Positions 1 through 25,404 of a stretch of DNA of 34,286 bases are shown in pieces; the stretch's first letter is position 1, and the number at the start of each line of letters is the position of its first letter. The notes beneath the pieces are model-generated. The model was not told the DNA's origin and searched no databases. It saw nothing but the letters and a program-made list of their open reading frames with translations. Position numbers and translations under genes: made by a program. The DNA is from a virus. Where the stretch lies: positions 1 through 34,286 of IMG/VR virus record IMGVR_UViG_3300021067_000014. The stretch is one strand, 5' to 3'.

Positions 1-917
1 ACACCACAACTGAGTTTATAGATTCTTGTGAGCGAGTAGGACATATACCCGTTTCTCAAAGTCCTTTTAGACCTGCGGACATTCTGGCTATTGCTGATCA
101 GCAACTGCAAACCGGAATACTAAGACAGATTCTCTCTACCAGAGAAAACTTTTATCTTACCTATAAGGACAATGACGTTAATGCCACTGGGATTTATAAC
201 ATTCCTCCCAGAGCTATTGGGGGAGCGTTAGCGGATATCCAACTGGTTGTCAGCGGAGTCATTCAACCAGTGGTGAGAAGCGAGATTCATGAGCAGTTTT
301 CTACTAATTCTAGTCCTAACGGAGTCTATAGTTTTTATATTAAGGGCAATCAGATTGTCATTGTACCTTACCCTACCGTTGGTACGGTTAGGCTTTGGTA
401 CTATCAACGGCCCAATAATTTGGTCGCTACTAGTGAATGTTCTCAGATAACTGCTATTAGTTCAGGCACTTTAACGGTCGACCAGACGTCGACAACTGAT
501 ATATCGACCTCGACTCCTTGCGATTTAATCAAGGACCAACCGTTTTTTGATACTCTGACAACAGATATAACTCCATCTTCTGTGAGCGCTACCCAGATCG
601 TCTTCTCCTCTAGTGATGTGCCAACTACCCTAGCGGTAGGTGATTGGGTGGCGCGCGCAGGACAATCTCCCATCATTCAAATTCCCGTAGAGTTCTATCC
701 ACTTTTAGTTCAACGCGTGGTGGTCAAGTACTACGAGATTCAGGGGTACTTGGACAAGATGAAAGCGGCGCAGATGAAGCTTGAGGAGATGGAAAAGGAT
801 ACCTTTTTACTCATTAATCCTAGAGTTGTTGAAGCACCAAAAACCATTTCGCCATCAGCTGACTTAATTGGAGGCTTTTCTAACTGGCGCAGATGGTTAG
901 TTAGTTCGAGTACTTAA
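1..917 (+). CDS. Head-tail adaptor protein, 5' partial
   Basis: The reading frame is open from base 3 to the stop at 915-917, so the gene runs off the left edge; the first in-frame GTG (270) is internal. About 305 residues are visible. The start of the visible part (TTEFIDSCERVGHIPVSQS, then an ADQQLQTGIL helix) resembles the N-terminus of podovirus adaptor/connector proteins that bind under the portal, so perhaps only a handful of residues are missing. A central Ser/Thr-rich beta region (about 150-215) is followed by a C-terminal helix rich in Lys, Met and Glu. It lies directly before the gp10-like gene, 4 bases away. Role assigned from position and N-terminal pattern; the fold is inferred. 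Confidence 0.65.
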   Translation, partial: TTTEFIDSCERVGHIPVSQSPFRPADILAIADQQLQTGILRQILSTRENFYLTYKDNDVNATGIYNIPPRAIGGALADIQLVVSGVIQPVVRSEIHEQFSTNSSPNGVYSFYIKGNQIVIVPYPTVGTVRLWYYQRPNNLVATSECSQITAISSGTLTVDQTSTTDISTSTPCDLIKDQPFFDTLTTDITPSSVSATQIVFSSSDVPTTLAVGDWVARAGQSPIIQIPVEFYPLLVQRVVVKYYEIQGYLDKMKAAQMKLEEMEKDTFLLINPRVVEAPKTISPSADLIGGFSNWRRWLVSSST

Positions 918-921
918 AATC

Positions 922-3858
922 ATGGGATATCAGCAGCAAAGTTTAACGCTTGAAATCTCTGGCCTCTACACATCGGCCAATAGTTTCACCGGAGTACCGA
1001 AAGGGGCATTAGATCAGGCTGAAAACATTGTTATTGATCACAAAAACATTGCAGAGAGTCGGCGTGGATTTGAATACGAAACAGGAACTTTTGGCACTGA
1101 TAGCGATCGCTGCAATGCAATTACAAGTTATCAATCATCTAGGATTATCCATTATGGCACAACTGGACTCGCTTATTATAATAGCGGTTGGACTAATTAC
1201 TCTGGTTCTTATACAGCACCTGATGCGGCCCTAGGAGCACGGGTTAGGTTCTACCAAGCTAATAAAAACCTTTATATCGCTACTTCTACAGGGGTAAAAA
1301 AGTTAGATGTCTATAACGGCACCCCAGTCGCTGCAGGAGTTCCCAAAGCTCTTGATTTACAGGCTACTTTAAGTGGGTCATCTGGGTTTTTTGACCCTAA
1401 CGTGCAGGTTTCTACAACTGCAAGTACCACAAATACCAGCACTTCTTTAAGCAGAATCAACAGTGTTACTGGAATAGAGGTCGGTCAGTACATTTATGGA
1501 ACAGGGATTCCTAGTGGAACGACAGTTTCTGCAATTACTCAAAGTTCCACTGCTGCGGTTACTACCGGGAACACGACTATTGGAACGACTAATATTGCCA
1601 ATATCGCTTCTAATAGTGGGTTAGCAGTCGGCAGATTTGTAGTTGCGGTAAATTCCTCTGGCACTACGATTTCTCAGCCCTACACTCGAATCACCGCAGT
1701 GAATGGGGCTGGACCGTATAATATCGATGTCGATTTAGCTCTTCTAAGTACCGAAACTGCCGCAAAGCTTACTGTTTCAACCGACAACACAATTACAATG
1801 AGTGCAGCTGCTACAGCCACAGCTAGTGGTGTCGCGATAGATTTCAGTGATGGCTCGCAGGTCGCTTACCGAGGACTTTTTGGTTATAGAGACGCTAATA
1901 ACAATGTTCTTTATGGAGCTCCCTCTCAATTTACTGCAATCACAAATACGAATGGCGTAACAAGTGATGTCGCAGTCACCATGACCATTCCTAGTGGAGT
2001 GACGACCTCTTACTTCTGGCAGCTATATCGCTCTTCTCAGACTGCAGACGCTTCTATTACCCCTACTGATGACATGCAGCTTGTTTATGAAGCTTCAGTT
2101 TCAAGTTCCGACATCACAAATGGGTATGTCACAGTTACAGATAGTATTTCAGACTCGCTTCGTGGAGCTTTTCTTTACACAGGGGTGGGACAAGAAGGTA
2201 TCGCGCAGGCTAATTATCAGCCCCCGTTTTGCAAAGACTTCTGCGCGTTTAAGAACTTTGGCCTGTACGCTAATGTGAAGTTTAAACAACGAAAAAAGCT
2301 GACTATCCTAGCAGTTGGAGGCAGTAACGGAATTGCTCTTGATGACACTCTCACTATTGCGGGAGTGACTTTTACTGCAAAAGCGTCCGAAACGATCGCT
2401 TCAGGCCAGTACAAGCTCTTCACCTCAGGCACTGCCGCGCAAAACATCACTGACACTACCAATAGCCTGATTCGGGTCATTAATCGGTACGCTTCTAATA
2501 CCGCAACCTATGCGACTCTGATCTCTGGGCCCACTGATTTACCGGGTCAAATACTCTTAGAAGAAAGAAGTTTAAGTAGTTCAAGTTTTGCTATTACAGT
2601 GAGTGCTCGGGGTAGTGCATTCTCCCCTACCCTTCCCACTTCTGGAACCTCTGTCAGTAGTGCTCAGGATACTTATAAAAACGGTATCGTTGTCTCTAAA
2701 GACGGTCAGCCGGAAGCCTGTCCTGAAGTAAACCTCTTCTTTGCAGGGGACGCCAATAAAGAAATCTTAAGAATCATTCCACTTCGAGAGTACGTCTTAG
2801 TCCTCAAACAAGATGGAATCTATAGAATCACTGGCAATACCGTATCAACCATGTCGGTCGCTCCCTTTGATCTGACTACCAATTTAATTGCCCCTAATTC
2901 AGTAGCTACTTTAGGCAATGAAGTCTGGGGACTCTTTGATCAAGGGGTCTGTGCGGTCAGCGACACAGGAGTGTCTTTAAAAAGCTATCCCATTGATGAC
3001 ATTATCAGGGAGCTAGTTGGAACAGCGCTATCTGACTTAAAGACCGTATCGTTTGGAGTGGGTTATGAGACCGACAGGCGATACATTTTAGGGGTGCCTA
3101 CCGCTTCAGGAGATACAACCTGCGAAGCACAGTACACCTTTAGCACTATTACCAATGCCTGGACCAAATGGACTAGAAACGCCACAGTAGGATTTGTTGA
3201 TCCTTCAAATGATAATCTTTACTTGGGGAATGGCGGCTCTAATACTGTTAGTAAGGAAAGAAAATCCTTCACCTATACCGATTTTGCCGATGAGAGCATT
3301 GCAGTCACGATTTCTTCGAGCTCTAGTTATAGCGTGACTCTTTCTAGTGTCTCAGGAGTCAGTGTTGGAGATGTCCTTTTACAGGGGAGCAGCTTCGCTA
3401 CTATTACTGCTATCAGTAACAACACTCTGACGGTTTCCAGTCTCATTAGCTGGAGTGCGGGTGCGGCTTCTGTTTATCCCAGTATCGATAACGTTTTAGA
3501 ATGGAAACCCATTGTTGCAGATAATCCGTCTTATGTAAGGCAGTACAGTGAAGGGCAACTGCTCTTTAAGCAGTTGAGATTTAACACTGCGACTATCTCC
3601 TGTTACACGGATATGTCACAGTCCTACTCCGATACCACATTAAGTGGCTTTACTAGCGGGACTTGGGGCAGTTTTGCATGGGGAGAAGAGCCATGGGGTG
3701 GTTCATTTAGACCTCGAGGTATAAGATTCTTAGTTCCTCAAGGTAAGCAGATGGGCTCACAATTCTCAGCCAAGCTTACTATCAATAACGCGTATAGTGA
3801 CTGGCAGTCGGAAGGTATCAGACTTTCCTATAGCCCAGTCAGTCAGGAGACCATCTAA
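922..3858 (+). CDS. Large tail protein, gp10-like (packaged-DNA stabilisation / tail hub)
   Basis: A 978-residue protein rich in Ser, Thr, Gly and Ala with long beta-strand patterns. N-terminal residues 1-70 (GVPKGALDQAENIVID, then SRRGFE) match the opening of phage proteins related to P22 gp10, which plugs the portal-adaptor complex. Residues about 620-760 look like beta-propeller repeats (REYVLVLKQDGIYRITG, NEVWGLFDQGVCAVSD). Two Ser/Thr-rich inserts (about 165-300 and 800-855) look like beta-domains. It is much longer than P22 gp10 (under 500 residues), so extra domains have been added. The ATG is 4 bases after the adaptor stop; the next gene overlaps its stop by one base (TAATG), implying coupled translation. 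Not a classical tail fibre. Confidence 0.7.
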   Translation: MGYQQQSLTLEISGLYTSANSFTGVPKGALDQAENIVIDHKNIAESRRGFEYETGTFGTDSDRCNAITSYQSSRIIHYGTTGLAYYNSGWTNYSGSYTAPDAALGARVRFYQANKNLYIATSTGVKKLDVYNGTPVAAGVPKALDLQATLSGSSGFFDPNVQVSTTASTTNTSTSLSRINSVTGIEVGQYIYGTGIPSGTTVSAITQSSTAAVTTGNTTIGTTNIANIASNSGLAVGRFVVAVNSSGTTISQPYTRITAVNGAGPYNIDVDLALLSTETAAKLTVSTDNTITMSAAATATASGVAIDFSDGSQVAYRGLFGYRDANNNVLYGAPSQFTAITNTNGVTSDVAVTMTIPSGVTTSYFWQLYRSSQTADASITPTDDMQLVYEASVSSSDITNGYVTVTDSISDSLRGAFLYTGVGQEGIAQANYQPPFCKDFCAFKNFGLYANVKFKQRKKLTILAVGGSNGIALDDTLTIAGVTFTAKASETIASGQYKLFTSGTAAQNITDTTNSLIRVINRYASNTATYATLISGPTDLPGQILLEERSLSSSSFAITVSARGSAFSPTLPTSGTSVSSAQDTYKNGIVVSKDGQPEACPEVNLFFAGDANKEILRIIPLREYVLVLKQDGIYRITGNTVSTMSVAPFDLTTNLIAPNSVATLGNEVWGLFDQGVCAVSDTGVSLKSYPIDDIIRELVGTALSDLKTVSFGVGYETDRRYILGVPTASGDTTCEAQYTFSTITNAWTKWTRNATVGFVDPSNDNLYLGNGGSNTVSKERKSFTYTDFADESIAVTISSSSSYSVTLSSVSGVSVGDVLLQGSSFATITAISNNTLTVSSLISWSAGAASVYPSIDNVLEWKPIVADNPSYVRQYSEGQLLFKQLRFNTATISCYTDMSQSYSDTTLSGFTSGTWGSFAWGEEPWGGSFRPRGIRFLVPQGKQMGSQFSAKLTINNAYSDWQSEGIRLSYSPVSQETI

Positions 3859-12010: not shown

Positions 12011-13360
12011 ATGTTTAAATGGATTATCGCTTTTATCCTCATTATCGCGGGTTGTGAAAGACTCGTTACTAACAATGTAGAAGTAACTAAAGAAGTTCCC
12101 GTAAAAAAGCTTCAGGACTTCCCATGGGCTGAACAAGAGGTCATGGAGCATATCGCTCTTTGTGGAGTTGGGGTTGTAGAAGGCCAAGAGGGCCCTAACA
12201 AGTGCAGCTACCATATCAAGGTAGACGATCTCATGTATCAACACCCTTCCCTAAAAACGGGTCTTTTACATGATCCGGAATTTGCCTTTAAAGGGGCTAG
12301 TTTCTATGAGCCCGATGACATGAAAGAAGAGGATATTCCTGATTCTTTCGATTTAAGAGACCTCATGAAAAATGGAGTGCCTGATATCAGACAGCAGAAC
12401 TGTGGAGACTGCTGGGCCTGGGCTACTCATCATGGATTAGAGATTGTGAGAGCCGTTCACGATCAAAAAAATTTTGATCACAGTGTGCAGACCGTTCTTT
12501 CTTGCTCCAAACACGGAAGCTGTAACGGTGGGTATATGAGTGCCCCCGACTTCTTACTTAATCGCGGTCTTCCCTATGAGCCTGACTTCTCGTATCAGGG
12601 AAAGGATGCGAGATGTAAGTTTTCATCAGATGAATTAGCAAAAGGATGGGAAGGAAAGGTCATTTCCGCTCCCTATATCGGTAAAAGTAGCTGGCACTCT
12701 AGAGGGGCTCCCGAGAGAGAGGGAACTAAAGTAAAGGCCATGATGGAGGCGATGCTAAAGCTTAAGTCTCCTTTAGTCGTAACTGTGGCGGCCTATTCGT
12801 CCAGTGGTGGGGTGGTGGATAGCTGCTCTGCTATTAATAGCGGTGGAAATCACATGGTCGCTATTGTGGGTTGGGAGATGTGGAAAGGTAAAAGAGTCGC
12901 TCATGTGTGGAACTCCTGGGGTAAGTCGCACGGAGAAAATGGCGTTTCAAAAATTGTCTGGGAATGTGGAGACGGAAGACTGAATCGAGGTCTTGGAGTA
13001 GACGCCAGGGTCTATGAATATAAAGGGGTAAACCCGCCTGATCCCTGTGAGCTACCAGAAAACGTAATTGAGAAGCCAAAACACATGATGTTTTTGGGTA
13101 GTAGTGTGAAACTTGGAAGAGCTCCTAAGAAGGCTCAAACTTGTAAATGGATCCCGGCAGACGGAATAGATAATCCGAATAGCTGTGAGACCTATGCAAG
13201 TCCCAATAGATCGACTGAATATCATTTAGAAGCTTCCAATGCCTGTGGGAAAGTAAGCGGTATCTCTCAGGTGGATGTGTATGGACCCATGGGTAAGCTA
13301 GATGACTCTGTGCTGACCCCGTTTGGAATAATTAATCGCAATAAAAAGGAGAATAAATAA
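12011..13360 (+). CDS. Papain-family (C1A) cysteine protease, lipoprotein, with C-terminal Ig/PKD-like domain
   Basis: A 449-residue protease with all papain landmarks: Gln128 of the oxyanion hole and Cys134 in QQNCGDCWAW, the CNGGYMSAPDFLLNRGLPYE segment (171-190), His281 in GGNHMVAIVGW, and Asn301 in VWNSWG. The N-terminus (FILIIAGC, Cys15) is a lipobox, so the mature protein should be lipid-anchored outside the inner membrane. Residues 20-125 resemble a propeptide. Residues about 350-430 resemble a PKD/Ig-like beta domain (TCKWIPADGIDN, then TEYHLEASNACG). Papain-like enzymes are rare in phages. It may process envelope or virion proteins, act in lysis, or alter the surface of a lysogen; the sequence does not decide. 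Confidence 0.88.
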   Translation: MFKWIIAFILIIAGCERLVTNNVEVTKEVPVKKLQDFPWAEQEVMEHIALCGVGVVEGQEGPNKCSYHIKVDDLMYQHPSLKTGLLHDPEFAFKGASFYEPDDMKEEDIPDSFDLRDLMKNGVPDIRQQNCGDCWAWATHHGLEIVRAVHDQKNFDHSVQTVLSCSKHGSCNGGYMSAPDFLLNRGLPYEPDFSYQGKDARCKFSSDELAKGWEGKVISAPYIGKSSWHSRGAPEREGTKVKAMMEAMLKLKSPLVVTVAAYSSSGGVVDSCSAINSGGNHMVAIVGWEMWKGKRVAHVWNSWGKSHGENGVSKIVWECGDGRLNRGLGVDARVYEYKGVNPPDPCELPENVIEKPKHMMFLGSSVKLGRAPKKAQTCKWIPADGIDNPNSCETYASPNRSTEYHLEASNACGKVSGISQVDVYGPMGKLDDSVLTPFGIINRNKKENK

Positions 13361-18051: not shown

Positions 18052-18065
18052 AATTGAGAAATCTT

Positions 18066-18686
18066 ATGAGTCGAGCGATTAAAACTCCAAAAGGGACCGA
18101 GCTACAGCTGAGAGATATTCATGGTCAAGACTATCTGGATGTTAAGTATCGGATCGTATGGTTTAGGGAGGAGTACCCGCTTTGGTCTATTGAGACTGAG
18201 TTTGTAGAAAAAAGCGAGAAACACGCGCTAATCAAAGCCACCGTGAAGGATGAAAATGGCAGAGTAAGGGCTACTGGGCACGGACATGAGAACCAACAGG
18301 GATTTAAAGACTTCAGAGAGAAGGCTGAAACAGCTGCGATCGGAAGGGCATTAGCGCATATAGGAATTGGTACGGTTAACGCGATTGAGCTCGAAGAGGG
18401 CGAAAAGATAGTTGATGCTCCAGCGTTTAAAAGAGCCCATGGGAGTCAGCCTGTTATTCATCCGGTTTCTCACTACTATCCGCCTGTTGAGGCTCCGAGG
18501 TTAGAGACTTATATCGTTCCTTTTGGAAAAAAGTATAAAGGTAGAAAGTTAACCGAGATTCCTAAAGAAGAAGTGCAAAAGTATTTGGACTGGCTACAAG
18601 AGGAAATCGATAAATCTGGGGAAGTTCCTAATAGTCAGACCAAAGATTTTATCCTTATGGCAGATAAGTATTTAGAAAAAGAGTGA
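18066..18686 (+). CDS. Rad52/Sak-like single-strand annealing protein with ExoX-like C-terminal domain
   Basis: A 206-residue protein from the ATG at 18066; a TTG at 18054 is possible but too close to the promoter. Residues 25-102 (VKYRIVWFREEYPLWSIETE, then ATVKDENGRVRATG, then KAETAAIGRALAHIGIG) follow the pattern of phage annealing proteins: a strand layer and a helix with A-E-T-x-A-x-G-R-A-L. Residues about 155-185 (VPFGKKYKGRKLTEIPKEE) match the small C-terminal domain seen in exodeoxyribonuclease X-like proteins, where G-K-x-K-G-x-x-L is the signature. It probably pairs complementary DNA ends for recombination or genome circularisation. No matching exonuclease is adjacent; the VRR-NUC protein (25000) is the only nuclease seen. 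Confidence 0.6.
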   Translation: MSRAIKTPKGTELQLRDIHGQDYLDVKYRIVWFREEYPLWSIETEFVEKSEKHALIKATVKDENGRVRATGHGHENQQGFKDFREKAETAAIGRALAHIGIGTVNAIELEEGEKIVDAPAFKRAHGSQPVIHPVSHYYPPVEAPRLETYIVPFGKKYKGRKLTEIPKEEVQKYLDWLQEEIDKSGEVPNSQTKDFILMADKYLEKE

Positions 18687-18757: not shown

Positions 18758-19639
18758 ATGCCGAACAACCTTGCTAGAGAGCTGTCTACAGTCATGCCAC
18801 AGCCTCAGTCCGAGTTGTGTGATCGCTTTGTTCGAGAAGTCTTACTGGGAAAGGTCTGTTGGGGCGAGCGAACGAATCACTTCTTACAACTTTGTAACTA
18901 TTGGACCACTGCACAAAAAGTCATTGAAGAGCTAAACCTTCCTCCTAGTGAATGGTCCGATCATAGAAATCTCATCTACCAATACTTCAGAAAACGCCGT
19001 CTAAGCGTCTCCTATGCACAAAAGGTTATTCGGGTATTAAACCTATGGGGAAGATTCTATTCTAGGCGAACCAATACGTTTTACGAGGAGGTTCCAAAGC
19101 CCCGGGGCGAAGCTTCAGTGAAGATTCAAGAGGCTTATTTTGAGAAGCGTCCTCATGGGCTAGTTTCTAAGGCGTTGAGCTGGGAACAGCTAAAATCTGT
19201 TAAAGACAAGATGCTAATTGAAAACTGGAACTGGCTTTATTTGACTCTTTGGTTTGGACTTAGGCCCAGTGAGTTAAATAATCTTAAGTGGGGAATAGAA
19301 GAATACAAAGGAGTAATGGTACTAGCAGTGTTCCAACACAAACTTGTACGTATTCCTACCGATCAGAGATGGAAGTTCATACCCATACTTTTTGAGGAAC
19401 AAAGAGCCGCTATTGATATTTTGGTAACCAAGAACTACCGAGTGCCTTTGGTTAAAACGCTACGTCGTCATATTGGTCCTAGGGTGACTCTCCGTGCAGG
19501 AAGAAAGGGTTTTGTGGCCCTAATGTGGGAGCAAGGTAAATACCCAAAGGAAGTATCCTACAGGTGGCTTGGGCATAAGAGCGTTAGAACGACCAATAAC
19601 CACTACACACAAGGGATTCAGCAGGCGTGTGAGTTTTAA
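18758..19639 (+). CDS. Tyrosine recombinase / integrase
   Basis: A 293-residue recombinase. Residues 20-110 form an N-terminal SAM-like DNA-binding region. Catalytic residues visible: Arg169 (FGLRPSEL), Lys195 (HKLVRIP), Arg246 (VTLRAGRKG), His273 (WLGHKSVRTTNNHY) and nucleophile Tyr283. The His of the usual H-x-x-R box is Val243, an unusual replacement. The 3' end from codon 285 to the stop is part of a 28-bp sequence repeated at 20133-20160. It probably inserts the phage genome into the host chromosome; no excisionase is recognised, though several small basic proteins are candidates. Confidence 0.88.
   Translation: MPNNLARELSTVMPQPQSELCDRFVREVLLGKVCWGERTNHFLQLCNYWTTAQKVIEELNLPPSEWSDHRNLIYQYFRKRRLSVSYAQKVIRVLNLWGRFYSRRTNTFYEEVPKPRGEASVKIQEAYFEKRPHGLVSKALSWEQLKSVKDKMLIENWNWLYLTLWFGLRPSELNNLKWGIEEYKGVMVLAVFQHKLVRIPTDQRWKFIPILFEEQRAAIDILVTKNYRVPLVKTLRRHIGPRVTLRAGRKGFVALMWEQGKYPKEVSYRWLGHKSVRTTNNHYTQGIQQACEF
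19611..19638 (+). repeat. 28-bp direct repeat, copy 1 (3' end of integrase gene)
   Basis: Identical over 28 bases to 20133-20160. This copy codes the last residues of the integrase (QGIQQACEF) and most of its stop codon. Flanks differ (C before and A after here; A before and G after in copy 2). It could be the core of an attachment site or the scar of a cassette insertion. Confidence 0.9.
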
Positions 19640-19671
19640 ATAGGATTCGTATCGGCGGTATATTCGTGCTA

Positions 19672-20133
19672 ATGGCAGTTCCTATGACGCAAGAACAGGC
19701 GGAACTGGTTAAAACCCCGATTTTGAGAGTAAGAGCGCTCAGCGGAAGATGTAGATCGGCCCTAGCAAATATGGCCTGGGGCCTTGGTTTTGATGGGGTA
19801 CGGCTTCGCGGTAAGGAAATTTTGTTAGAAGATGTTTTGACTATGGGTGCTCATAAACTGCTCCAAGTTAAGGGCTTTGGACGGAAATCCCTTAAAGAGC
19901 TTCTGGGTTTCATAGAAAAAAATCGATTCAATTTGGCCCCTGGACCTGATGTTAATCTCGAAGAATCCCCCAAAAGAGGTACGAAGCCATATAAAAGAAA
20001 ATACCTCTGGATTCCCAACCAAGAGGTAAAGCGGTGGGAAAAACGCATGAATGGAAAAGGTTATACCCAGGTATTGGTTTATGCCATTGACGGAAAACTC
20101 ACGACTAAATATAAAAAACGCGGATCGTTCTAA
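19672..20133 (+). CDS. RNA polymerase alpha-CTD-like protein
   Basis: A 153-residue protein from the ATG at 19672. Residues 16-85 follow the bacterial alpha-subunit C-terminal domain: RVRALSGRCRSALANMAW resembles the S-x-R-x-x-N-x-L-x-x-A segment, then LEDVLTMGAHKLLQVKGFGRKSLKELLGFI gives the helix-hairpin-helix with G-F-G-R-K-S-L-x-E. In RNA polymerase this domain contacts UP-element DNA and activators. No alpha N-terminal domain is present. The C-terminal 70 residues are basic. TATATT (19659-19664) ends 7 bases before the ATG and no ribosome binding site is seen, so the message may be leaderless. The gene lies between two identical 28-bp repeats. It may redirect or inhibit host transcription; other HhH DNA-binding roles remain possible. 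Confidence 0.75.
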   Translation: MAVPMTQEQAELVKTPILRVRALSGRCRSALANMAWGLGFDGVRLRGKEILLEDVLTMGAHKLLQVKGFGRKSLKELLGFIEKNRFNLAPGPDVNLEESPKRGTKPYKRKYLWIPNQEVKRWEKRMNGKGYTQVLVYAIDGKLTTKYKKRGSF

Positions 20134-20160
20134 AGGGATTCAGCAGGCGTGTGAGTTTTA
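20133..20160 (+). repeat. 28-bp direct repeat, copy 2 (after the alpha-CTD-like gene)
   Basis: Exact copy of 19611-19638. It begins in the stop codon of the alpha-CTD-like gene and its last three bases (20158-20160) form the stop codon of a convergent minus-strand gene. Together the copies bracket a 522-base unit. Confidence 0.9.
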
Positions 20161-20334
20161 GCGTTTAGGCTTTTTCCCAAATACTTGCTTATGCACCTTG
20201 CGGGCTAGCTCGCCAAAGGTATGTTCAACGAATTTAATGTGCCTCAATAAAGCGGCTTTCTTGCCCTTTAAATGAGGTACGAACTGTAGGCTATATTCTA
20301 TTTGTTTCTCGAGTTTAGTCTTTTTATTTGCCAA
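20158..20334 (-). CDS. Small very basic protein
   Basis: A 58-residue ORF starting at a TTG (20334) that overlaps the end of the upstream lipoprotein gene by 11 bases. Composition is strongly basic (Lys, Arg, His), with a helical middle (KAALLRHIKFVEHTFGELARKVHKQ). No ATG is available and no clear ribosome binding site, so it may rely on coupled translation. Its stop codon is supplied by copy 2 of the 28-bp repeat, which means the repeat boundary sets the C-terminus. Function unknown. Confidence 0.45.
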   Translation of the reverse strand: MANKKTKLEKQIEYSLQFVPHLKGKKAALLRHIKFVEHTFGELARKVHKQVFGKKPKR

Positions 20335-21263: not shown

Positions 21264-21400
21264 GGTAGTTCCTTTGCTATCTCACCCGCTCCTACTCTCT
21301 GCGGAACCACCTTAAAGATGTCTTGACAGATTTAGAAGCCAGTTCGAAAGTTGCCTCATCGATTCTCTTCGCAGGAGAATCGATAAACAAAGGAACTACC
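21264..21400. repeat. 13-bp inverted repeat pair in a divergent control region
   Basis: GGTAGTTCCTTTG (21264-21276) and CAAAGGAACTACC (21388-21400) are perfect inverse copies. Read outward, each is the ribosome binding region of a small ORF starting M-x-R-S-Y. The 111 bases between contain the perfect hairpin 21358-21384. I could not find a convincing promoter in either direction. Confidence 0.75.
21358..21384. other. Perfect 10-bp hairpin
   Basis: ATCGATTCTC (21358-21367) and GAGAATCGAT (21375-21384) with loop TTCGCAG. No T-run follows, so it is not a normal terminator; it may be an operator or an RNA structure in the leader of the plus-strand genes. Confidence 0.75.
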
Positions 21401-21403
21401 GAA

Positions 21404-21601
21404 ATGCCCAGAAGTTACTTTAGAATAACCCGCCTAATCAAACCCTTTCTTTTTCTTTCTTCTTTCATTCGCCTGAAGACACTGTGTCTTAGGCGGTTAA
21501 ATAGCTGGGGAGGGACTAGAACCTCTAGACCAAGCCTACCGTTTTTAGTTCAGCTTGCTTTTTATCAAGACGATCGCTCCGTCAGGGAGGGTCGATGGTA
21601 A
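21404..21601 (+). CDS. Small basic/hydrophobic ORF
   Basis: From the ATG at 21404 (AAAGGA site 9 bases upstream) it gives 65 residues: MPRSYFRITRLIKPFLFLSS, then Arg-rich and Ser/Thr-rich segments. The hydrophobic part (residues 11-23) is short. A strong hairpin (21470-21495) lies inside it and may be RNA structure rather than coding. Its end overlaps the next ATG by 7 bases. The start resembles the divergent 15-codon leader. Reality as a protein is uncertain; a structured leader transcript is the alternative. Confidence 0.35.
   Translation: MPRSYFRITRLIKPFLFLSSFIRLKTLCLRRLNSWGGTRTSRPSLPFLVQLAFYQDDRSVREGRW
21470..21495 (+). other. Strong hairpin (CGCCT/AGGCG with AAGACA/TGTCTT)
   Basis: CGCCT, one bulged G, AAGACA, a CTG loop, TGTCTT and AGGCG make an 11-bp stem. 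It is followed by GTTAAATAG and not by a T-run. Together with the hairpin at 21358-21384 and the region from 21784 onward it marks this part as RNA-structure-rich. Confidence 0.65.
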
Positions 21602-21774
21602 GAGAATCCTTCATTCTACAAAAAGCGGCCAAGATTATCGCCGATAACAAAAAGAACACATTAAAAGCCGCCAAACAGATTTTTGATCTTCTAGAACAAA
21701 ACCGCTTACTCGATTGGAGCCGGCTCGATCCGGATTATCCCAAGAAAGAAAAAGGAGGTTCTAGAGGACGTTAA
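21595..21774 (+). CDS. Small helical protein of unknown function
   Basis: A 59-residue protein with a good CAGGGAGGG ribosome binding site before its ATG. The N-terminal 40 residues form a basic amphipathic helix (LQKAAKIIADNKKNTLKAAKQ, then IFDLLEQNRLLDW), and the tail is polar (KKEKGGSRGR). It lies between two structured stretches and at the head of the plus-strand early region. Small basic helical proteins here can be regulators or excisionases, but there is no motif to choose. Confidence 0.55.
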   Translation: MVRESFILQKAAKIIADNKKNTLKAAKQIFDLLEQNRLLDWSRLDPDYPKKEKGGSRGR

Positions 21775-21783
21775 TAGAGGGCA

Positions 21784-22152
21784 TGGGTGGTCCTAACCGC
21801 CCACAGTGATGGAGGCGTATAGCGCCCAAGAAGTCATGGACTCGTGAGGGTCTACCACGATTTGGTTCGTGTAAGCATAGCTTCAGTGAGCTGTTACTCA
21901 GCTGAAGCATTAGGTGTCCGAAGGTTGATAGGCCGACGGGTAGTGAACACTAGGAGAGCACCATCGATAAGCGACAGGGGCGCCTCGATGCTTGGGCCAC
22001 AGTACTGTGCCTGCGTCTACCTATGGAGAAGTTGTTTTTGTTGAAGTTGGGCTAACTCGAATCAGTAAGAGGGCTTACAGGTGTACTGGCTAGAGAATAC
22101 GGAATGGGGATTGGGGGGCATTCTTATGTCCTCAGGAATCCTGACCTCTGGG
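21784..22152 (+). ncRNA. Candidate structured noncoding RNA or structured DNA element
   Basis: About 370 bases with no convincing ORF and a chain of hairpins: TGGGTGG/CCGCCCA (21784-21803), GGCG/CGCC (21814-21826), TCGTG/CACGA (21842-21860), GCTTCAG-TGAG/CTCA-G-CTGAAGC (21880-21908), CATCGA/TCGATG with inner GCG/CGC (21962-21990), CACAG/CTGTG (21998-22009), GTAAG/CTTAC (22065-22078), TCAGG/CCTGA (22132-22144) and CTGGG/CCCGG (about 22148-22160). Composition is more G-rich than the flanking genes. It lies between short plus-strand genes. I do not recognise tmRNA, RNase P, 6S or intron cores. Phages are known to carry large ornate RNAs (GOLLD, ROOL); membership cannot be judged by eye. A replication origin is the other option. 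Strand is inferred from the neighbours. Confidence 0.5.
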
Positions 22153-22164
22153 TAGCCCGGGTTT

Positions 22165-22341
22165 ATGAGCAGTAAAGAAGGCAGAAGTGAGAAGCAGACT
22201 AATGAAAGTACAAAAGAAAGGCTGTGTAAGGTTTGTAAAGCAAGACTCAGATCATCCATCGGTCCTTACAGAGAGAAGTACTGGAAAAGCAGACTTTGTA
22301 GGTTCCATTTCCACAGAAGGCCAAAAACGGAGGATAGATGA
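22165..22341 (+). CDS. Small Cys/His protein, zinc-finger-like
   Basis: A 58-residue protein from the ATG at 22165. It has CKVCKARLRSSIGPYREKYW followed by LCRFHFHRR, i.e. C-x2-C and C-x2-H-x-H pairs that could bind one zinc ion, in a strongly basic context. Its stop overlaps the next ATG (ATGA), supporting this frame over the longer overlapping frame starting at 22187. Possibly a DNA-binding early protein. No clear ribosome binding site; the end of the structured region lies directly upstream. Confidence 0.6.
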   Translation: MSSKEGRSEKQTNESTKERLCKVCKARLRSSIGPYREKYWKSRLCRFHFHRRPKTEDR

Positions 22342-22526
22342 CAAAGCTAAAACTCTTAAAAGGCCTATTAGAGATGAAGATCCAAGCGATTCTTTATGTT
22401 GGACGGGAGGACGGAATGTTAACCCCTGAGCAACACCAGAGATGGAAGATTTACAAAGACTTACTAGAGGTTATTGAGACTATAGAGGACATCGAGGATC
22501 TTAACGGACACGATAAGGCGGCATAG
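22338..22526 (+). CDS. Small helical protein of unknown function
   Basis: A 62-residue protein starting in an ATGA overlap with the zinc-finger-like gene. The N-terminal half is hydrophobic-basic (LKLLKGLLEMKIQAILYVG); then PEQHQRWKIYKDLLEVIETIEDIEDL forms an acidic helix. The gene ends 1 base before an AGGAGG ribosome binding site for the next. No family recognised. Confidence 0.55.
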   Translation: MTKLKLLKGLLEMKIQAILYVGREDGMLTPEQHQRWKIYKDLLEVIETIEDIEDLNGHDKAA

Positions 22527-22539
22527 GAGGTATGAATGA

Positions 22540-24500: not shown

Positions 24501-24938
24501 ATGAGTAAGCCGTCTGACCGCTATGAGACTCCTCCGGAAATATTCGAGTACTTAAATCACATCCACGGGCCATTCGATCTTGATGTGTGTGCTGAAGTTT
24601 CAACGGCCAAATGCAGCACATTTATAACTTTAGAAGCGAATTCACTCGCTGCGGAATGGCACCAGTTTGGAAAACGCGCTTGGATGAATCCTCCCTACTC
24701 GAACATTCGACCTTGGGTAGAAAAGGCTATCAATGAGTCTAAAAAGGGAGTTGTAACCTGTGCACTTCTACCAGCAGATACTTCCACTCGGGTCTTTCAC
24801 GACTGTATCTATGGGAAACCGGGCGTCATCAGCTATTTTTATCCAAAGAGGATCAAGTTTCTGCTGGATGGAACTCGTCAGCAATCAGCGAAGTTCGGAA
24901 GCTTAGTCACTCTGTTTTACCCAAATTATCGCGTTTAA
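24501..24938 (+). CDS. dam: Phage DNA N6-adenine methyltransferase (Dam-like)
   Basis: A 145-residue enzyme of the phage N6A-methylase group (PF05869-like). It has FDLDVCAE (25-32) for the S-adenosylmethionine pocket, catalytic NPPY (63-66, WMNPPYSNIRPWVEKAI), and the late FYPKRIKFLLDGTR segment with G-S-L-V-x-L-F-Y-P at the end. It would methylate adenine in phage DNA, protecting it from restriction or timing replication and packaging. It starts 3 bases after the loader gene. The target site cannot be read from the sequence. No cognate nuclease of a restriction system is adjacent except the VRR-NUC protein. Confidence 0.88.
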   Translation: MSKPSDRYETPPEIFEYLNHIHGPFDLDVCAEVSTAKCSTFITLEANSLAAEWHQFGKRAWMNPPYSNIRPWVEKAINESKKGVVTCALLPADTSTRVFHDCIYGKPGVISYFYPKRIKFLLDGTRQQSAKFGSLVTLFYPNYRV

Positions 24939-24999
24939 TGCGCCGCTATTGCAAACTTATTACAAACTAAGACATAGTGTATAGGTTGGGGGAATAAGC

Positions 25000-25404
25000 T
25001 TGTCCTATCCCATGTCTGAGGCAGCAGTACTAGCCGGCTGCAAACACTTACTTGAACTATTACGTAATGAAGGCCTACTCGTTTGGAAAAGAATATCCAC
25101 CACTGGTATTCCAGTAGGGGATCAGACAAGGCGCGCCATCTTTGTGAAAAACCCAGCTCAAGGGATGGCCGATATCATGGTCTTTCTAAAGTCCGATCCC
25201 CCAAAGACCCTACATATAGAACTAAAAAGTAAAACTGGCAGGCTCAGCGAAGCTCAAGAGAAGTGGAGAGATGAGCTAAAAGCTATGGGGCATGACACCT
25301 ACTACCTTGTGCGAAGTGTACAAGAGCTAGAAAAGGTGCTCATAGATAATGGAGTAGTCCATTGGTCGTTGAACAGAAGGGCCCACGAATGCGCGGGGGA
25401 CTAA
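25000..25404 (+). CDS. VRR-NUC-type nuclease
   Basis: A 134-residue nuclease from the TTG at 25000, preferred because GGGGGA lies 7 bases upstream; the ATG at 25012 is the alternative. The PD-(D/E)xK core is visible: GMADIMVF with Asp58, then LHIELKSKTG with Glu74 and Lys76, followed by LSEAQEKWRDELKAMGHDTYYL. VRR-NUC proteins act on branched or junction DNA; in phages they may resolve recombination intermediates or replace RusA. It closes the early operon and is followed by the iteron-like repeats. Confidence 0.82.
   Translation: MSYPMSEAAVLAGCKHLLELLRNEGLLVWKRISTTGIPVGDQTRRAIFVKNPAQGMADIMVFLKSDPPKTLHIELKSKTGRLSEAQEKWRDELKAMGHDTYYLVRSVQELEKVLIDNGVVHWSLNRRAHECAGD

Follow-up and report, generated by a model that had tools for sequence, protein, structure and literature searches.

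The final codons of the integrase gene (int) of this virus recur exactly just beyond the next gene downstream, and the two direct copies frame a single small gene whose product resembles half of an RNA polymerase alpha-CTD. The reading that we favour, tentatively and at somewhat less than an even chance, is that the framed DNA is a 522-base cassette carrying one gene, taken up at the 3' end of int through site-specific recombination that Int itself would have mediated. A scar of passive recombination is only slightly less likely; both weights are our judgements and were not computed. The window, which is the whole virus record of 34,286 bases, contains recognisable terminase, portal and capsid families. 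The features of the region are summarized in Table 1.

Table 1. Positions, in the window, of the features at and beyond the 3' end of int
Feature	Position	Strand	Basis or description
int, tyrosine recombinase, 293 aa, stop TAA (19637-19639)	18758..19639	+	PHROG, Foldseek, catalytic residues
Repeat copy 1	19611-19638	+	final 28 bases of int, stopping within the stop codon
alpha-CTD-like gene, 155 aa with a GTG start (153 aa if begun at the ATG of 19672)	19666..20133	+	PF03118, hhalign
Repeat copy 2	20133-20160	+	runs from the stop of the alpha-CTD-like gene into that of the convergent ORF
522-base unit (cassette plus one repeat copy)	19639..20160 (equivalently 19611-20132)	+	spacing; in-silico removal
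Convergent ORF, putative, 58 codons, TTG start	20158..20334	-	stop within copy 2

The repeat, AAGGGATTCAGCAGGCGTGTGAGTTTTA, is exact over 28 bases and its two copies are spaced by 522. When up to three mismatches are allowed, the whole record yields these two copies and no others, and the third-best ungapped match (19/28) is at the level of shuffled sequence. No other exact direct repeat in the record reaches 18 nt, and the longest in mononucleotide shuffles (n=20) measured 13-17 nt. The initial annotation, which had drawn attention to an exact 28-base direct repeat containing the int 3' end and bounding a 522-base unit, is thus borne out, with both copies located and unique. Its count of nine repeated int codons is slightly too high: only eight codons (GIQQACEF) are complete in copy 1, which also takes in two bases of the ninth and, as the annotation had stated for most of the stop, the TA of TAA. 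The 5' edge of the 28-mer falls inside the second codon past that of Tyr283. The first base of copy 2 is the third base of the stop of the alpha-CTD-like gene (20131-20133), and its final three bases (20158-20160), read on the minus strand, are the TAA stop of the convergent ORF. Both junctions are as originally described, except that the convergent "gene" is only putative; its product matches nothing in Pfam above cut-off. A search of the 28-mer for inverted core arms found none: in an 11-6-11 arrangement the arms match at 2/11 positions, by which a dif or pdif site is rejected, and the best inverted arms are no better than those of shuffles (1392/2000). Phage cores may be very imperfect.

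When one 522-base unit is removed in silico, int encodes an identical 293-aa integrase with TAG as its stop, and the convergent ORF keeps its own stop, now overlapping that TAG. The present state therefore resembles an insertion into a tight tail-to-tail gene pair, in which copy 1 looks like the restored end of int and copy 2 like the displaced original end. The unit has direct copies at both sides and no integrase gene, and as a 522-base circle it would keep the cassette reading frame whole. A direct repeat lying at the 3' end of a gene, with int intact both before and after removal, is the pattern of a 3'-end-restoring insertion. The initial proposal, entry of a cassette at the 3' end of int with regeneration of the terminus, fits this geometry through the joined flanks; mobility of the cassette is unsupported.

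The adjoining gene was called an integrase, and it is indeed a tyrosine recombinase by PHROG (phrog_1 integrase, E 5.9e-9) and by structure, although its catalytic box II His is replaced. The Pfam match to PF00589 (15 bits) is under the cut-off. An AF2 model for which 23 further phage integrases were supplied (mean pLDDT 64.9) retrieves XerA, Cre and IntI by Foldseek at probability 1.00, and the P2 Int catalytic domain aligns with it at TM 0.64 (on target); matches of int to HLA among PDB sequences were dismissed as chance. Alignments to 34 and to 23 phage integrases show in the protein the catalytic R169 (box I), R249 (box II), H273 (box III) and the nucleophile Y283. The first residue of box II is Arg246, not the His found in 33 of the 34 compared integrases; substitutions of this His are known in the tyrosine recombinase family. 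Around residues 192-206 the alignment of the beta-hairpin Lys region is ambiguous.

The framed protein matches Pfam PF03118 at E 0.0015 and 18.7 bits, under the 23.8 cut-off, and over profile positions 36-62 of 67 only, so the whole two-part HhH domain is not matched. Aligned by hhalign with 30 RpoA C-terminal domains it reaches 80.8% probability (E 1.3e-5); the best other ORF of the window reaches 2.3% among 90 ORF readings with a result, two of which are the framed protein itself. The second HhH motif, GxGRKSLxEL, is satisfied (GFGRKSLKEL). In a scan of 398 genomes of one phylum both int and the framed protein gave weak matches (top score at locus L054, E 8.9e-6), and one of those of the framed protein lies inside an RpoA gene (E 0.0014). 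Because of the PF03118 match, the hhalign result and the match in the RpoA gene, the framed protein can fairly be read from its sequence as carrying half an alpha-CTD, including GFGRKSLKEL, on a match that is weak but specific. The alpha-CTD-like identity first given to it thus holds for half of the domain and not for a full domain over the cut-off. AF2, run on the protein without relatives, gives a mean pLDDT of 43.7. Neither composition nor codon usage marks the gene as foreign, and by codon usage it cannot be told from its neighbours. Lying downstream of int on the same strand, it may encode a small protein that contacts DNA or RNA polymerase.

The closest relative found, G001 (60% identity in terminase, 74% in capsid), has a 98-base end repeat; no end repeats were found in the record. 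A capsid-profile scan recovered the known relative alone. Where the ends of the window would join, G001 has a 792-aa tail-fibre-like ORF, situated between the post-capsid gene and the first window ORF, and the record is without that stretch; we therefore take the window to be an almost complete genome that is opened at this place. Since the contig passes through int with phage genes on either side, a reading of the pair as attL and attR of this phage is rejected, and the window shows the free-phage side, where attP is expected. attP often adjoins the recombinase gene. No integrase was found in the relatives by Pfam (0/9, with a model that is weak even for the int of the window), in the other records with this int as query (0/9), or with a phage-integrase profile (0/6); the profile included the int of the window, whose own match is by construction. 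The nearest cultured phage by terminase (25.6%) is that of Silvanigrella aquatica, with three proteins in common; it has an integrase, and the 3' end of that gene is repeated over at most 13 nt in the readable DNA.

Elsewhere in the window, positions 21310-22530 are poor in ORFs and contain strong local hairpins at 21358-21384 (z -4.4), 21469-21496 (z -3.3) and 21880-21908 (z -2.8); a 301-nt fold there is no better than shuffles on the plus strand, and the stretch matches no Rfam family. It is a candidate attP, origin or RNA region, and a rival place for attP. At 12011-13360 the phage carries a gene for a papain-family (C1) cysteine peptidase (E 3.2e-27), an unusual phage cargo with a related stretch in G001 (34% identity over 214 aa), and at 24501-25404 a Dam-type adenine methylase (E 2.3e-29) is followed by a VRR-NUC nuclease (E 1.5e-5). 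The related phage record G007 (L102, 1261-2077) has a long imperfect array of hexamer-based repeats of the GTCGAG/GTCGAT type. Clusters of small ORFs with identical patches of 23-60 bases occur in G008 (L104/L105, 8772-12932) and G004 (L100, 15599-16258), the patches falling at inner segments and at 3' ends of ORFs that otherwise differ or are paralogous.

Traces of movement were sought in several collections. The 28-mer is absent from other IMG/VR viral contigs, which also yielded no single-copy (empty) junction, and no relatives of int or of the cassette were found in viral contigs, phages or plasmids; cassette DNA compared with phages gave short, chance-level pieces only. No second cassette or attB was found. 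A 19-base core searched in 257 Gb of species genomes gave one match, where about two would be expected by chance on both strands; this match (L005) was rejected as a host site on account of the chance-level count and its position within a coding sequence, which we take to encode a secretin. A tRNA-derived core was likewise discarded: there is no tRNA, and Rfam gives no match at the site and none at gathering in the window. The search first proposed for the 28-mer, in other attachment sites, tRNA genes or relatives, thus gave no copy in other viral contigs and no tRNA link. Nor is there support for the idea that the phage recombinase excises or swaps the cassette, for which an empty junction, a related cassette, a credible host site and inverted arms are all lacking. 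In the open PMC literature we found no description of such an arrangement, which is not proof of its absence.

For comparison, 37 integrase control loci were fetched by pattern, 36 of which were readable to the stop. Of the 33 whose ORFs have 280 aa or more, 23 come with fetched DNA past the stop, and the 10 that do not were left out. The 3' end of these 23 (the last 60 nt and 10 nt beyond) showed no repeat longer than 14 nt in the fetched DNA, so a repeat of the int end is not a routine feature. Among 43 control sources (543,571 bases), 8 contain isolated exact repeats of at least 22 nt at spacings of 150-3000, and the repeats examined closely (G004, L044, L045) lie within paralogous genes.

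We infer from this arrangement that the 28 bases may be, or may contain, the core site of the integrase, placed within the last codons of int itself. A core on incoming DNA would recombine with the core in int, and the cassette would come to lie with a direct copy at either side; copy 1 would then restore int, and copy 2 would be the displaced original end, still abutting the convergent ORF. A likely route would be accretion, in which an integrase-less, core-flanked element sits beside the phage in a host attachment site and is excised together with it. Host DNA between two neighbouring attB sites, co-excised with the phage, could be an alternative source. An attachment site is favoured by the location at the int end, the uniqueness of the repeat, its direct orientation and the clean restoration of int; it is weakened by the absence of inverted arms, the missing box II His and the want of an empty site or relative. 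Capture is also opposed by the codon usage of the framed gene, which is like that of its neighbours, and by the rival place for attP at 21310-22530.

Almost as probable is a passive scar, in which one phage's int-alpha-CTD arrangement became fused, through illegitimate or annealing-mediated recombination, with the 3' end of int and the convergent ORF of a close relative, the 28 bases being the remnant of a second int and Int having no part. Mosaicism is general among phages, and this one carries at 18054-18686 a gene, its C-terminal part matching the gene at the corresponding place in G001, whose product is presumably a strand-annealing protein. The frequency of spaced repeats in the control sources, the patches among small accessory ORFs of the relatives G004 and G008, both without a detected integrase, and an int without the box II His all agree with such a history. 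Yet the closely examined control repeats lie in paralogous genes, and no such kinship links int with the alpha-CTD-like gene. Moreover, a random scar would rarely be both the sole repeat of a genome and placed exactly at the int end (1-2%, on our estimate). A scar accounts for the same facts as capture, save this coincidence of place.

Two further explanations seem improbable. The 28-mer could be a selected protein-binding site or RNA signal, such as an Int arm site, a terminator or an element of translational coupling, present at two gene ends with no recombination involved; both copies do stand on one strand at the 3' ends of genes, and the RNA may fold into a weak, G-U-rich hairpin (-5.3 kcal/mol, z -1.70). 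In context, however, the hairpin is not clearly above shuffles (z -1.10 and -0.35 at the copies), terminator calling found none at either copy, there is no third copy, and identity at 28/28 over coding and mainly non-coding positions exceeds what a signal needs. Least probable of the explanations weighed is an assembly artefact that fused two phage variants across a common 28-mer. The record is metagenomic and 28 nt is close to assembler k-mer sizes; against this, composition and codon usage are continuous through the region, and the edges match gene ends to within one base.

Capture at the int end has partial parallels in known systems. In Mx8, according to passages of PMC6070905, attP lies inside int, integration gives int a new 3' end, and the phage uses one or the other of a pair of adjacent attB sites. 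The present phage would likewise be a tyrosine-recombinase phage with its attachment core in its own int, and paired attB sites would permit the pick-up of host DNA; here, unlike in Mx8, the int end is restored exactly instead of altered, and a duplicated core or cassette is not described for Mx8 in those passages of PMC6070905. A restored target gene with a displaced fragment is a mark of islands (PMC4383910). Integrase-less, att-flanked elements accrete with mobile ones, ICEs and IMEs (PMC5704250, in extract), and PAISt undergoes modular excision through an internal att copy (PMC4057263, in extract). Such CIMEs share with our case integrase-less DNA between direct copies beside an integrase-bearing element (PMC5704250); as these extracts present them, CIMEs and PAISt are integrated chromosomal islands, with proven sites for PAISt, whereas ours is a putative one-gene unit of 522 bases in the int of a free phage genome. 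HE-PICIs are satellites inserted in a helper phage gene with direct att copies (PMC10111431, excerpt), and the present unit similarly lies in a phage gene between direct copies; by that excerpt HE-PICIs have their own integrase and late-gene targets, and the 522-base unit is without an integrase and in int. The pdif modules of XerC/D are small modules of genes with 28-bp sites as their boundaries (PMC13141974, excerpt); here, by contrast, the repeats are direct, have no XerC/XerD-like inverted arms and belong to a phage, next to its own recombinase gene. Archaeal suicidal integrases of the SSV type have the recombination target inside the integrase gene (PMC8371274, excerpt), and their genes are disrupted on integration, as that excerpt has it, whereas int here stays whole.

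A bolder extension of capture, which we consider rather improbable, though less so than a functional signal, is that phage Int uses its own gene end as a docking site for promoterless one-gene cassettes in an integron-like manner, each restoring the int end and being read from the int side, and that the cassette here supplies a free-standing alpha-CTD-like modifier of host transcription. As one unreplicated instance, it is of value mainly for a well-defined and easily testable prediction: the unit would occur as a circle of 522 bases and leave an empty junction whose sequence is known. Were the 28-mer to function as a core, the phage integrase could add or remove accessory genes in the phage itself, at the end of its own gene. 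That would offer a cheap path for the turnover of phage accessory genes and a bacterial counterpart of the integrases whose target lies inside their own gene, and the free-standing alpha-CTD-like phage protein would be a possible modifier of host transcription.
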